A DNA stretch of 64,000 bases. Source: Micromonospora sp. CCTCC AA 2012012 (GTDB taxonomy: Bacteria > Actinomycetota > Actinomycetes > Mycobacteriales > Micromonosporaceae). The position numbers were made by a program, and so were the translations under genes. The stretch is taken from contig NZ_CP159342.1 of NCBI RefSeq assembly GCF_040499845.1, positions 682,001-746,000 of the forward strand, in the 5' to 3' direction. Below, piece by piece: positions 1-3,657 of the stretch (position 1 is the first letter of the stretch; each line of letters starts with the position of its first letter). Below the pieces are notes generated by a model. It did no database searches. It worked only from the letters and a program-made list of their open reading frames with translations, and was not told where the DNA came from.

Positions 1-705
1 GGCGGCGGGGGAGAGCAGGAAGGCGGCCACCCGGCCGAACTCGGCCGGCTCGCCGATCCGGCCGAGCGGGATGGCCGCCTCGGCCTCGGTCCGGGCCCGC
101 TCGGGGTCGCCGGTGGCGGCGAAGAGTTCCCGGTTGCGGTCGGTGAGGATCCGCCCCGGCAGCAGGCCCACCACCCGGACGCCCCGGGGGCCGTACTCGT
201 CGGCGATGTCCTTGGCCACGCCGGCCAGGCCGGGGCGCAGGCCGTTGGAGATGCCCAGGCCGGGCACGGGGCTGCGGGCGGAGGTGGAGAGGACCAGCCC
301 GATCGCGCCCCCGTCGGTGAGGGCGGCGGCGACCGTCCTGGCCGCGCGGACGGTGCCGAGGAAGACCGTCTCGAAGGACTCGCGCCACTGCTCGTCGGTG
401 ACCTGGGCGGCGGTGCCCCGGGGCGGACCGCCCACCGAGATCAGCGCGCCGTCGAGGCGGCCGAACTGCTCGCGGGCCGCGGCGACGAGCCGGTGCGGGG
501 TGGCCGGGTCGGTGAGGTCGGCGGTCAGCCCGATCGCGTGTTCCGGGCCGCCGAGCGCGTCGACCGCGGCGGCCACCCGCTCGGGGGCCCGCGCCGAGAC
601 GACCACCTTCGCGCCGTCGGCCACCAGCTGCTCGGCGGTGGCGAGGCCGAGGCCGCCCGAGGCACCGGTCAGCACGTACACCCGGTCGGCGAGTCCGAGA
701 TCCAT
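1..705 (-). CDS. SDR-family oxidoreductase, 3' end beyond window
   Basis: Short-chain dehydrogenase/reductase with an N-terminal Rossmann fold: the cofactor motif TGASGGLG is near residue 13. The open frame of 235 codons runs off the left edge, so the C-terminus is missing. The usual NNAG is replaced by SVGG, and the expected catalytic YxxxK is replaced by NGLR in the stretch SNGLRPGLAGVAKD, so it may not be a classical reductase. The ATG start has an AGGA ribosome-binding site 8 bases upstream. It lies 42 bp downstream of the MNIO-partner gene on the same strand and could be the fourth gene of that operon. The substrate is unknown. Confidence 0.88.
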   Translation of the reverse strand, partial: MDLGLADRVYVLTGASGGLGLATAEQLVADGAKVVVSARAPERVAAAVDALGGPEHAIGLTADLTDPATPHRLVAAAREQFGRLDGALISVGGPPRGTAAQVTDEQWRESFETVFLGTVRAARTVAAALTDGGAIGLVLSTSARSPVPGLGISNGLRPGLAGVAKDIADEYGPRGVRVVGLLPGRILTDRNRELFAATGDPERARTEAEAAIPLGRIGEPAEFGRVAAFLLSPAA

Positions 706-747
706 GACGCCGATCCTGCCGTACTCCGTGCCGGTCCGCAGCGGGGG

Positions 748-1248
748 TCAGCCGGTGGCGGGGCGGAGCAGGCGTACCCGACCGGCGAGCTGCACCGCGA
801 CGGCGCCGCCGGCCCGGGCCACGGCCGGCAGCCGGCGCGGCCGGGGCGCGCGCCGACCGTCGTAGCGGGTGGCCGCCTCGCGGGCGACCAGCTCCTCCGC
901 GCCGAGCGGCGGGAGCGTGCCCCGGTCGCGCAGCTCCCGGGCCAGGTCCCAGCCGTCGCGCAACGAGCCGTTGGTGGGGCGGCCGGCCGCCCAGTCGGCG
1001 AAGGTGCCGGGCCAGTCTGCGCCGAGGCCGGCGGCGAGCAGTGGCCAGTGCCGGGCCACGTCGCCGGCCCGTTTGCGCAGCAGCGCGCGGCGGGCGACGT
1101 CGACCGGGACCGGGTCGAAGCCGGGCGGCGTCGGGGCCCCGGCGACCAGGGACGCGACCAGCGCCGCCTGCCGCGCGGCCAGACCGGTCCCGGCGTCGGG
1201 GGCGGTGTCCCCGCCGGTGCGACCCGTCGGTCGTTCCCGGCCGGTCAC
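748..1248 (-). CDS. SCO6045-like partner protein of the MNIO enzyme
   Basis: A 166-residue soluble protein. Its GTG start overlaps the stop of the MNIO gene (GTGA), so the two are translationally coupled. It has no membrane segment. The central part carries a helical motif with ARRALLRKRAGDVARHWP, a Trp-rich FADWAAG segment and REAATRYDG. This resembles, from memory, the domain fused or adjacent to DUF692 proteins in Streptomyces (SCO6045-like). DUF692/MNIO enzymes of known function need a small partner that recruits the substrate peptide, and the position here fits that role. The role is inferred from coupling and family precedent, not from a catalytic motif. The C-terminus is basic and Arg/Pro-rich. 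Confidence 0.72.
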   Translation of the reverse strand: MTGRERPTGRTGGDTAPDAGTGLAARQAALVASLVAGAPTPPGFDPVPVDVARRALLRKRAGDVARHWPLLAAGLGADWPGTFADWAAGRPTNGSLRDGWDLARELRDRGTLPPLGAEELVAREAATRYDGRRAPRPRRLPAVARAGGAVAVQLAGRVRLLRPATG

Positions 1249-2063
1249 GTGACCACCGGGAAGCCGCCCGCGACGGCGAGGGCGTCCAGTTCGCCGCGCA
1301 GCTCGGCGGCGGGCGGGTAGCAGCCGTCCCGTTCCAGCAGCAGGGCCGGCGGCCGACGCCGCGCGCACAGGTCGCGGACCAGGTCGAGCACCTCGGCGGG
1401 GACCGGGTCGGTGTGCGTGTCGTGATAGAAGCCGCCCTGCTCGGCGCCGCCCGCGACGTGCACGTAGGCGATCCGCTCCAGCGGCAGCCGGTCCAGCAGG
1501 GCCGCCGGGTCGCCGCCCCGGTTGCGCGCGTTGGCGTGCACGTTGGCGATGTCGAGCAGCAGCAGCGCCCCGGTGGCGTCCAGGATCTCGGTCAGGAAGT
1601 CGGCCTCGTCGAGCTCGTCGTCCGGCCAGTCGAAGAGCGCGGCGATCGGTTCGAGGGCGATCGGCACCGGCAGCTCCGCCTGCGTCCGCCGTACGTTCGC
1701 CACCACCGCGGCGACCGCCTCCCGGCTGCGCGGCAACGGCAGCAGGTGCCCGGCCTCCAGGCCGCCGGCCCGGACGAACGCGATGTGCTCGCTGACCAGC
1801 GGCGCGTCGACCGCCGCGGCCACCCCGGCCAGGTGGGCCACCCGCGCGGCGTCCACCGGCTCGGCGCCGCCGAGCGACAGCTTCACCCCGTGGGGTACGA
1901 CGGTGACGCCGCGTCCCCGCAGCTCGGCCAGCTCGGGCGGGAGCGGGCCGGCCGGCGCGACGGTCTCCGCCACCACCTCGACGAAGCGCAGCCCGGGCAG
2001 GCCGGCCACGAAGCCGGCGATCTCCGGCCGCCAGCCGATCCCGATCCCCGACGGCGTCGTCAT
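1245..2063 (-). CDS. DUF692 / MNIO family multinuclear non-heme iron enzyme
   Basis: A 272-residue TIM-barrel protein of the DUF692 (MNIO) family. Known members (MbnB, TglH, BufB type) use two or three iron ions and oxygen to rewrite cysteine residues in ribosomal peptides. Candidate metal ligands are visible: H58, SEH ending at H93, E138, D171 and N174 with H176 in DIANVH, H202 in YVHVAGG, DTH ending at H217, and E244 with D246 in LERD. The usual ENPS motif is replaced by LEPIA. The ATG start overlaps the stop of the upstream Cys-tail membrane protein (ATGA), and the stop overlaps the partner gene (GTGA), giving a tight three-gene operon. The likely substrate is the cysteine-rich tail of the upstream protein, by inference. 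Confidence 0.88.
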   Translation of the reverse strand: MTTPSGIGIGWRPEIAGFVAGLPGLRFVEVVAETVAPAGPLPPELAELRGRGVTVVPHGVKLSLGGAEPVDAARVAHLAGVAAAVDAPLVSEHIAFVRAGGLEAGHLLPLPRSREAVAAVVANVRRTQAELPVPIALEPIAALFDWPDDELDEADFLTEILDATGALLLLDIANVHANARNRGGDPAALLDRLPLERIAYVHVAGGAEQGGFYHDTHTDPVPAEVLDLVRDLCARRRPPALLLERDGCYPPAAELRGELDALAVAGGFPVVT

Positions 2064-2980
2064 CCGCCGCACCCGCCACCGCCGCAGCCGCCGCCCCCGC
2101 AGGAACTGCCACCGCCGCACGAGCTGCCGCTGCTGCAGGAACTCCCGCCGCCGCACGAGCTGCCCGACGAGCCGGTGCCGGTCATCGCCTGGCGCTGCAC
2201 CTCGGCCTGCGCCGCGAAGCCGGGGTCCATCGCCCAGATGGTGGCGGTGCCGAAGAGCGCCACCCCCATCGCGGCGTCGGACGGACCGTAGGTGGCGTAG
2301 GCGGGGGCGGCGGACGGCCGCAGGAAGGTGTGCCGGCGACGCAGCTCGCGCAGCTCCCGGTTGGCGGCGCGGGTGCGCCAGGGCACCCGGGCCAGCAGCA
2401 GGAACGCGATGAACAGTGGCACCAGGGTGAGCATCAGGAAACCGGCCGGTTTGCCGTGGGAGAGGCCGGTGACGAGCCGGAAGCCGCCGAGCAGCAGCAG
2501 GGCGAAGATCAGCATCGGGCCGCGCCGGACGGCGTTGCGGCGGGCGGGGGAGAGGGCCAGCCCGCGCTGCTGGAGGCCGTCGCGCAGCTGCTCCAGCGCC
2601 CGGGCCACCCACTCGTCGCCGCGCAGCTCACGGGCGGTGAGGTTTCGGCCGGCGGCGTTGTAGATCGCCTGGTCCAGCGGGGTCACCCCGGCCGGCATCG
2701 ACCCGGCGACGGTGAGGCGCCGGTCGACGCCGACGCCGACCACGCCGCTGCGGCGCAGGCCGCCCAGGGCGGTCCAGACGGCGAGCTGGTCGCCGCCGTT
2801 GAGGTAGGCCACCTGCTGCGGACCGAGTGGGGCGCTGCCGGCGGTCGACGGACCGGCCAGCGCGGTGAGCCGGTGCACCAGGCTGCCGACGACCAGCACG
2901 GCCGCCGCCAGGAGGTACCACCGCAGGAAGACGGGGCCGGGGATGCCCCAGGTGTCGCCGGGTGCCGCGAGGACCGTCAT
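2060..2980 (-). CDS. TIGR04222-type membrane protein with Cys/Gly/Ser tail
   Basis: A 306-residue protein with one membrane segment near residues 17-38, a soluble region of about 110 residues, two further membrane segments near 154-172 and 179-198, then a basic linker. Its last 40 residues are a low-complexity tail of Gly, Ser and Cys. The six cysteines fall at 276, 282, 288, 294, 299 and 304, spaced 6,6,6,5,5. Positive charges after helix 1, before helix 2 and after helix 3 suggest that the tail lies in the cytoplasm, where an MNIO enzyme could reach it. The architecture matches TIGR04222 proteins, which end in such tails. The ATG start has AGGAG about 7 bases upstream. It is first in an operon with MNIO and partner genes, both joined by 4-bp overlaps. 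Confidence 0.85.
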   Translation of the reverse strand: MTVLAAPGDTWGIPGPVFLRWYLLAAAVLVVGSLVHRLTALAGPSTAGSAPLGPQQVAYLNGGDQLAVWTALGGLRRSGVVGVGVDRRLTVAGSMPAGVTPLDQAIYNAAGRNLTARELRGDEWVARALEQLRDGLQQRGLALSPARRNAVRRGPMLIFALLLLGGFRLVTGLSHGKPAGFLMLTLVPLFIAFLLLARVPWRTRAANRELRELRRRHTFLRPSAAPAYATYGPSDAAMGVALFGTATIWAMDPGFAAQAEVQRQAMTGTGSSGSSCGGGSSCSSGSSCGGGSSCGGGGCGGGGCGG

Positions 2981-3084: not shown

Positions 3085-3657
3085 TCAGCGCCGGCGGACC
3101 GCCTCCTCGACGAGGTCCAGCACCGGCCCCAGGTCGCCGGCCGGTCGACCCATCGCCAGGTGCAGCACCAGCCCGTCGTACGCCAGCTCCAGGAACTGGG
3201 CCAGCACGTCGATCGGTACGTCCTCACGCAGCACCCCGGCGTCCCGCTGGCGGACCAGCCGCTCCCGGGTGGCCTCGGCGATGGCCGCGGAGCGTTCCGC
3301 CCAGCGTCGGGCGAACGACGGGTCGGTGCGCAGCCGGCGGGAGACCTCCAGCTGGCTGCCGAGCCAGCCGGTGGTGTCCGTGGAGCCGGCGCGGGCGAGC
3401 AGGTCCCGCATCACCTGGACCAGGCCGTTGCGGGCGACCGTCTCCACCATGGCCGCGGCGTCGTCCTCGGCGACGGCGAGGAAGAGCGAGTCCTTGTCCC
3501 GGAAGTGGTGGAAGATCGCGCCGCGGGAGAGGCCGGTGGCCTCCTCCAGGCGGCGTACGGTGGCGCCTTCGTAGCCGTGCCGGGCGAAACACGCCCGCGC
3601 GGCGCCGAGGATCTCCTGCCGGCGCGCGTCGAGCTGGTCCTGGCTTACTCTGGGCAC
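3085..3657 (-). CDS. acnR: TetR-family repressor, AcnR-like
   Basis: A 190-residue TetR/AcrR regulator with GTG start. The N-terminal helix-turn-helix includes YEGATVRRLEEATG and SRGAIFHHF. From memory, both this domain and the ligand domain (LRTDP, DVPIDVLAQFLE, LDLVEEAVR) closely match AcnR, the repressor of aconitase in Corynebacterium. There acnR sits next to acn; here the aconitase gene is about 19 kb away. A 12-bp perfect palindrome lies 37-48 bp upstream of the start, and an almost identical site precedes acnA, so autoregulation and control of aconitase are likely. The divergent amidase gene shares this intergenic region and may also be controlled. Confidence 0.8.
   Translation of the reverse strand: MPRVSQDQLDARRQEILGAARACFARHGYEGATVRRLEEATGLSRGAIFHHFRDKDSLFLAVAEDDAAAMVETVARNGLVQVMRDLLARAGSTDTTGWLGSQLEVSRRLRTDPSFARRWAERSAAIAEATRERLVRQRDAGVLREDVPIDVLAQFLELAYDGLVLHLAMGRPAGDLGPVLDLVEEAVRRR

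Follow-up and report, generated by a model that had tools for sequence, protein, structure and literature searches.

Known MNIO systems and the locus studied

The closest described relatives of the locus analysed here are the TIGR04222-MNIO-PME-type 2 gene sets, in which the tail of the TIGR04222 protein was proposed as the substrate (Antoine et al., 2025; PMC12452194). In the parts of that report drawn on here, the Micromonospora examples comprise a TIGR04222 protein of 300 amino acids (aa) and a PME-type 2 protein of 158 aa, and the domain and tail are stated to be periplasmic on the basis of predicted topology. Our locus is a three-gene operon on the minus strand (2980 to 748) of a 64,000-nucleotide stretch of Micromonospora sp. 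CCTCC AA 2012012 (contig NZ_CP159342.1, positions 682,001 to 746,000), hereafter called the window. It encodes a TIGR04222 membrane protein with a Cys-containing tail, an MNIO enzyme and a small partner protein. The published sets consist of the same three gene families, include Micromonospora examples and carry the same idea of the tail as substrate; gene arrangement and substrate idea are already in the literature and are not new. A cytosolic topology, counts relating Cys to MNIO and a kinship with DUF2207 are refinements not met in those parts of PMC12452194, and the words DUF2207 and positive-inside are absent from it. The literature search listed no announced experimental study of the TIGR04222-MNIO-partner set, going by listings for everything beyond PMC12452194 and the preprint PMC13419390. 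The reading we lean towards, at slightly better than even confidence, is that the operon provides a membrane-anchored MNIO substrate with a cytosolic tail together with two maturation proteins, and that the tail Cys become tethered metal ligands. The modification, metal and physiology assigned to the tail below are those that analogy with described systems would suggest.

As far as the two sources are drawn on here, the oxazolin system HvfA-HvfB-HvfC (PMC13419390) and the bufferins (PMC12452194) likewise combine an MNIO and a partner with repeated C-terminal Cys; HvfB oxidises the six C-terminal Cys of HvfA with a change of -4 Da each (PMC13419390). Their precursors are small and carry Sec signal peptides, whereas the presumed substrate in the window is a three-helix membrane protein, and their partner is of the DUF2063 plus RRE kind (PME-type 1), whereas that of the window is short and without the DUF2063 signature. 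TglHI (3-thiaglutamate) and MbnBC (methanobactin) are also MNIOs with a partner, and among solved folds TglI and MbnC come closest to the partner in the window. Both systems act on free peptide substrates and yield products differing from those proposed here. DUF2207 membrane proteins are remotely homologous in their membrane and domain part, with a profile probability of 96-97%, and have a Gly-rich tail, but unlike the TIGR04222 protein of the window they possess an extra N-terminal domain behind a signal-like segment and no tail Cys.

The operon comprises the following features.

2060 to 2980, minus strand: TIGR04222 membrane protein gene, ATG start, 306 aa; presumed MNIO substrate
1245 to 2063, minus strand: MNIO gene (PF05114, formerly DUF692), ATG start, 272 aa
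748 to 1248, minus strand: partner gene, GTG start, 166 aa; five helices followed by three strands; presumed PME-type 2
2060 to 2063, minus strand: ATGA overlap of the TIGR04222 stop and the MNIO start; same overlap in 51 of 69 homologous pairs
1245 to 1248, minus strand: GTGA overlap of the MNIO stop and the partner start; same overlap in 73 of 78 homologous pairs
2063 to 2185, minus strand: disordered Gly/Ser tail of the TIGR04222 protein (residues about 266-306) with Cys 276, 282, 288, 294, 299 and 304; from sequence and predicted structure

Gene assignment and conservation of the three-gene set

The initial annotation of this stretch had described 4-bp overlaps between three genes, an upstream TIGR04222 membrane protein with a Cys/Gly/Ser tail and an MNIO as the middle gene. 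The overlaps were confirmed at 2063-2060 and 1248-1245, and both family assignments agreed with profile searches: the upstream protein scored 182.6 bits over residues 21-249 (TIGR04222 cut-off 43) and has six tail Cys, while the middle one scored 259.5 bits for PF05114 (cut-off 25). TIGR04222 was the sole NCBIfam match of the upstream protein at E up to 1; there was no Pfam match and no bufferin signature, and the EGKCG motif of bufferin and oxazolin precursors was not found in it. By profile search the genome holds one MNIO gene and two TIGR04222 genes, the second of which (L002) has no adjoining MNIO and encodes a basic 29-residue tail without Cys.

For synteny counts, GTDB genomes were scanned with the MNIO of the window and the best 80 of 566 confirmed relatives were taken as loci; partner and TIGR04222 genes were detected in them with profiles built from these same loci and seeded with the proteins of the window. 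The loci span Micromonospora, Salinispora, Actinoplanes, Actinomadura and others. Conservation of the neighbourhood had been set beforehand as the check on the proposal, and it was found: the TIGR04222 gene lies directly upstream of MNIO in 69 of the 71 loci holding at least 1.1 kb upstream, and the partner gene lies downstream in all 78 loci holding at least 450 bases downstream. For comparison, PMC12452194, in the part concerned, predicts PME-type 2 proteins in at least 10% of TIGR04222 clusters.

The two upstream misses differ in kind. At L090 (5076-8126) the reading frame of TIGR04222 changes inside the tail repeat, and the Cys tail is readable in another frame; the shifted frame continues into those of the partner and the next gene, through sequencing error or in reality. 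At L138 (4800-6010) the TIGR04222 gene is gone and a short Gly-rich remnant with one Cys precedes the MNIO start.

The Cys tail and its association with MNIO

All six Cys of the TIGR04222 protein lie in the tail; when 44 homologues are aligned, two of the six, Cys 294 and Cys 304, prove almost invariant (at least 90%). Tails in MNIO loci mostly end in CGG, those of Actinomadura often otherwise. Cys is followed by Gly in 329 of 384 cases (86%) versus 53% in shuffled tails, a count made on related sequences that share the CGG end.

Tail Cys were measured as [GS]C[GS] motifs in the last 60 residues, and a protein was taken as MNIO-adjacent when an MNIO lay no more than about 4 kb away on the same strand. 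In a draw of 150 Micromonosporaceae genomes, 98 of which have an MNIO, the loci gave 155 TIGR04222 frames of at least 40 bits; exclusion of four open at contig ends left 151 closed frames. Two matches under 40 bits were skipped, and the loci cover most, not all, TIGR04222 matches of the draw. At least two motifs were present in 97 of 100 MNIO-adjacent proteins, in 14 of 44 whose genome has its MNIO at another place and in none of seven from MNIO-less genomes, one of which has a single motif. The three adjacent proteins falling short of two motifs are extra copies in tandem arrays. Of the 16 genomes that the draw contains from the window's genus, 10 have copies of the L002 type, the window's own genome being one of the 10.

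At the level of the class, a draw of 345 genomes contained TIGR04222 above the cut-off in 91 and MNIO in 81. Twenty MNIO-adjacent loci (L362-L381) from seven other family codes were selected by hand, before any of their tails was inspected, so as to be adjacent and to spread over families, and all 20 had at least three motifs in at least one adjacent copy. Among the 24 of the 91 TIGR04222 genomes lacking a PF05114 hit, only G568 (L337) showed a Cys tail; an MNIO gene begins directly after this tail and is cut short by the contig end, and the locus was therefore counted as MNIO-bearing. None of the other 23 has two or more motifs, and one (G659) has a single motif. Within this class-level set L340 is open at a contig end, and L359 and L361 repeat L347 and L351. 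Of the 27 frames of the PF05114-less set, ten still end in a tail whose last 30 residues are G/S/D to 60% or more; Cys is missing from that stretch in nine of them and occurs once in the tenth.

The MNIO enzyme and its partner

The MNIO scored below the NCBIfam cut-offs for BufB (NF050167; 177.1 versus 310), HvfB (150 versus 360) and ApyH (107 versus 400), and is therefore regarded as a member of the superfamily belonging to none of the three. Ten residues are conserved (H58, H93, E138, D171, N174, H202, H214, D215, H217 and E244); nine are invariant in 171 of 171 homologous frames, drawn from overlapping genome sets, and E244 is found in 170 with one gap. In alignments the iron-site residues of the solved relatives 3BWW and TglH (8hci) are present in the MNIO of the window: N174, D215 and H217 match N, D and H in both, the C-terminal alignment with 3BWW being weak (11 bits), and H214 is common to the window's MNIO and TglH but not 3BWW. 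The same three residues correspond by position to N175, D242 and H244 of HvfB, which form iron site 3 and are each required for activity according to the part of PMC13419390 drawn on here.

The partner gave nothing above cut-off in Pfam and NCBIfam, and none of 41 partner homologues matched DUF2063, the signature of PME-type 1 (bufferin) partners, at E up to 1. A partner gene that follows MNIO and is without this signature corresponds to the description of PME-type 2. The top two rows of the fold search were the MNIO partners TglI and MbnC, with weak likeness; NGO1945, named as the PME-type 1 fold in PMC12452194 (in the part drawn on), was not among the rows. Foldseek alone returned nothing under E 0.001 with either structure model, and a PDB sequence search with the TIGR04222 protein (P0001), P0003 and the profiles A1 and A2 found no convincing relative. 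The best 19-residue hydrophobic windows reach 1.35 in the MNIO and 1.14 in the partner, versus 2.54 in the TIGR04222 protein; as neither has a strongly hydrophobic segment, both should be cytosolic.

A more distant genus (code g7, probably Streptomyces) was represented by 25 loci, namely 20 MNIO loci from near the top of the match list, G473 left out, plus L277-L281. MNIO occurs in 58 of 61 g7 genomes. The order is MNIO, partner and TIGR04222, the last now downstream instead of upstream and often followed by a second, Cys-free copy. In 21 of the 25 loci (within L277-L281 and L312-L331) MNIO and partner share one stop-free frame, a natural fusion; L280 (873-2498) encodes both as a single protein of 541 aa. 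The inspected passages of PMC12452194 on fusion and related words, 12 of 14, describe no MNIO-partner fusion. A Cys-tailed TIGR04222 copy adjoins MNIO and partner in 17 of the 20 and one of the five loci.

The genomes G473, G707, G727 and G766 carry MNIO genes of about 358-370 bits for PF05114, some 90 bits above the TIGR04222-linked kind. These are probably another MNIO type in the same groups.

Topology and kinship with DUF2207

Upstream of its tail, the TIGR04222 protein has the following parts.

2858 to 2938, minus strand: first membrane helix (residues 15-41), with the N terminus predicted to lie outside; from AlphaFold2 model (pLDDT 85), hydropathy and charges
2555 to 2854, minus strand: soluble, predicted cytosolic domain (residues about 43-142) of helices and a small beta hairpin; remote relative of DUF2207_C
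2390 to 2548, minus strand: hairpin of membrane helices 2 (residues 145-174) and 3 (residues 180-197); from hydropathy and AlphaFold2 model

The charges, the model and the DUF2207 kinship suggest that the domain and tail are cytosolic, contrary to the published periplasmic reading. Hydropathy was taken from common scales, and the three long helices of the AlphaFold2 model match the three hydrophobic segments; after the third (TM3) the model has short broken helices (233-243, 246-251, 253-258 and 261-269) and then the disordered tail. Lysine and arginine (K+R) near the membrane average 11.1 in about 48 residues on the domain/post-TM3 side versus 1.0 in about 26 on the other side, and they are in excess on the former in 44 of 44 homologues. 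In a wider alignment, which includes related rows and leaves residues 1-15 uncovered, the densities are 0.23 versus 0.07 per residue, with the same sign in 262 of 269 rows. The first helix has no basic n-region (mean 0.07 K+R in residues 1-17 of the 44 homologues). Under the positive-inside rule, and with three membrane crossings, this asymmetry would place domain and tail in the cytosol. The tails of the Cys-free paralogues of the 29-aa kind are basic, with a net charge of +1 to +3 in 10 of 10.

By profile comparison TIGR04222 is a remote relative of DUF2207_C (PF20990) and not a member: 96.4% probability (E 1.2e-9, 171 columns) and 97.2% in global mode, while the other profiles, GPP34, partner and MNIO, gave 1.4%, 0.4% and 0.45%. 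The Pfam model itself did not match the TIGR04222 protein of the window at E up to 10; it touches 23 of the 44 homologues at that level (best 3e-4), but DUF3040 also touches 16 (best 4.1e-4). The three DUF2207 proteins inspected begin with a hydrophobic, signal-like segment, after which come the DUF2207 N-terminal domain, a membrane helix with basic residues behind it and then the TIGR04222-like module; the signal-like segment and the basic residues after the next helix point to the same orientation as the cytosolic reading. Among ten distinct frames of DUF2207 relatives, all have a charged LPYA..FG...W helix roughly where residues 233-251 lie, and a Gly-rich tail, their last 60 residues being free of Cys. 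L015, L020 and L027 are DUF2207 proteins that share the membrane and domain module, and their Cys-free Gly-rich tail often ends in GGSW.

Neighbouring genes

A TetR regulator (window 3085-3657) and a short-chain dehydrogenase (window 1-710), both on the minus strand, flank the operon. They recur nearby in 54 and 53, respectively, of the 63 loci with full flanks, but near none of the eight Actinomadura operons and not in L130, a locus from a metagenome-assembled genome. As components of the system they were rejected and taken as background synteny; since they are not kept in the Actinomadura loci, the core system is considered to be the three genes.

Proposed mechanism and alternative explanations

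In the reading favoured here, the TIGR04222 protein would span the membrane by three helices, with its N terminus outside and both folded domain and Cys/Gly/Ser tail facing the cytosol. The partner would bind the MNIO and enable its iron cluster, as modelled on HvfBC and supported by co-occurrence and the shared frames. The MNIO may then oxidise the tail Cys one by one, most likely to a thiooxazole-type heterocycle with about -4 Da per Cys, by comparison with HvfB and the bufferins. The product could be a tethered array of soft-metal ligands at the inner membrane face, most likely for copper buffering or sensing, a role taken from the bufferins and oxazolins only.

The claim of the initial annotation that a membrane-anchored tail is the MNIO substrate is in line with the synteny, the MNIO residues, the shared frames of g7 and the raw counts of Cys and MNIO. 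The association did not reach significance, however, once phylogeny was corrected for: on a FastTree tree of 201 TIGR04222 domains (123 adjacent to MNIO with a Cys tail, 18 adjacent without, 14 non-adjacent with and 46 with neither) the test of Cys tail against MNIO adjacency gave a median p of 0.375. This independent-pairs test yielded 9 supported pairs, of which 3.4 changed the same way, 0.6 the opposite way and 5.1 showed no difference. The uncorrected Fisher value of 3.5e-20 counts related sequences and was for this reason not used as proof; the association is strong in raw counts, yet few independent events stand behind it. In addition, seven of the 25 g7 loci have no adjoining Cys-tailed TIGR04222 copy, and these exceptions weaken a strict MNIO-Cys-tail rule; in three of the exception genomes a copy located far away has one Cys close to its Gly-containing end (L306-L308). 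All of this weighs against the reading proposed, as do two features bearing on topology: residues 233-252, with a mean hydropathy of 1.13 and 0.02 K+R on average, could be a fourth crossing, and the Cys tails are acidic (net -3.4) with few K/R.

These last two features would fit a tail that the MNIO does modify but that is found on the outer side of the cell membrane, as a bufferin on a tether would be, with the protein either N-in or crossing a fourth time at residues 233-251. Such a location is also what PMC12452194 deduces from predicted topology, and the bufferins carry Sec signal peptides (PMC12452194, both in the parts drawn on). We regard it as unlikely, though with some claim to attention, in view of the K+R excess found in every one of the 44 homologues, the model with three long membrane helices and a following helix broken at 244-245 and 252, the charged helix and the orientation of the DUF2207 relatives inspected, and the basic tails of the Cys-free paralogues. 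Improbable, in our estimate, is a Cys tail that stays unmodified, binding metal or forming disulfides, while MNIO and partner act on another substrate such as an unannotated small peptide. The 14 Cys-tailed copies among the 44 located away from MNIO and the seven g7 loci would be expected from it, as would other frames with at least two [GS]C[GS] motifs near MNIO; of these there are 65, scattered over 38 of the 63 full-flank loci and mostly chance-like, and they count against the favoured reading too. A TIGR04222 frame with at least two motifs is, on the other hand, present in 61 of these 63 loci, and no other recurrent Gly/Cys-tailed frame was seen by eye in the 63 loci or in seven loci of five g7 genomes. 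The gene order kept in 69 of 71 loci, with its translational overlaps, and the Cys-free Gly tails of MNIO-less relatives also argue against a separate substrate. Finally, the MNIO might modify the TIGR04222 protein at residues other than Cys, since Asp, Asn or Phe are the targets of other MNIOs (PMC12452194, in the part drawn on), or might crosslink or excise instead of forming thiooxazoles. We give this very little credence, because Cys is the tail feature that varies with the presence of MNIO, while G/S/D-rich tails persist without it.

Biological meaning

Most named MNIO products are small peptides, many of them secreted, as far as the parts of PMC12452194 and PMC13419390 drawn on here show. 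The operon could, quite tentatively, stand for a class built on a protein and not a peptide, in which an enzyme-made heterocyclic metal-ligand array is carried by a flexible arm anchored at the inner membrane face, as an intracellular counterpart of bufferins. The widespread Gly-tailed TIGR04222/DUF2207 module would then have been turned into a metal handler by gaining tail Cys and MNIO. If true, a modified membrane protein that is widespread in actinomycetes would bring proteins into the range of MNIO chemistry; a cytosolic tail would also bring in metal handling inside the cell.

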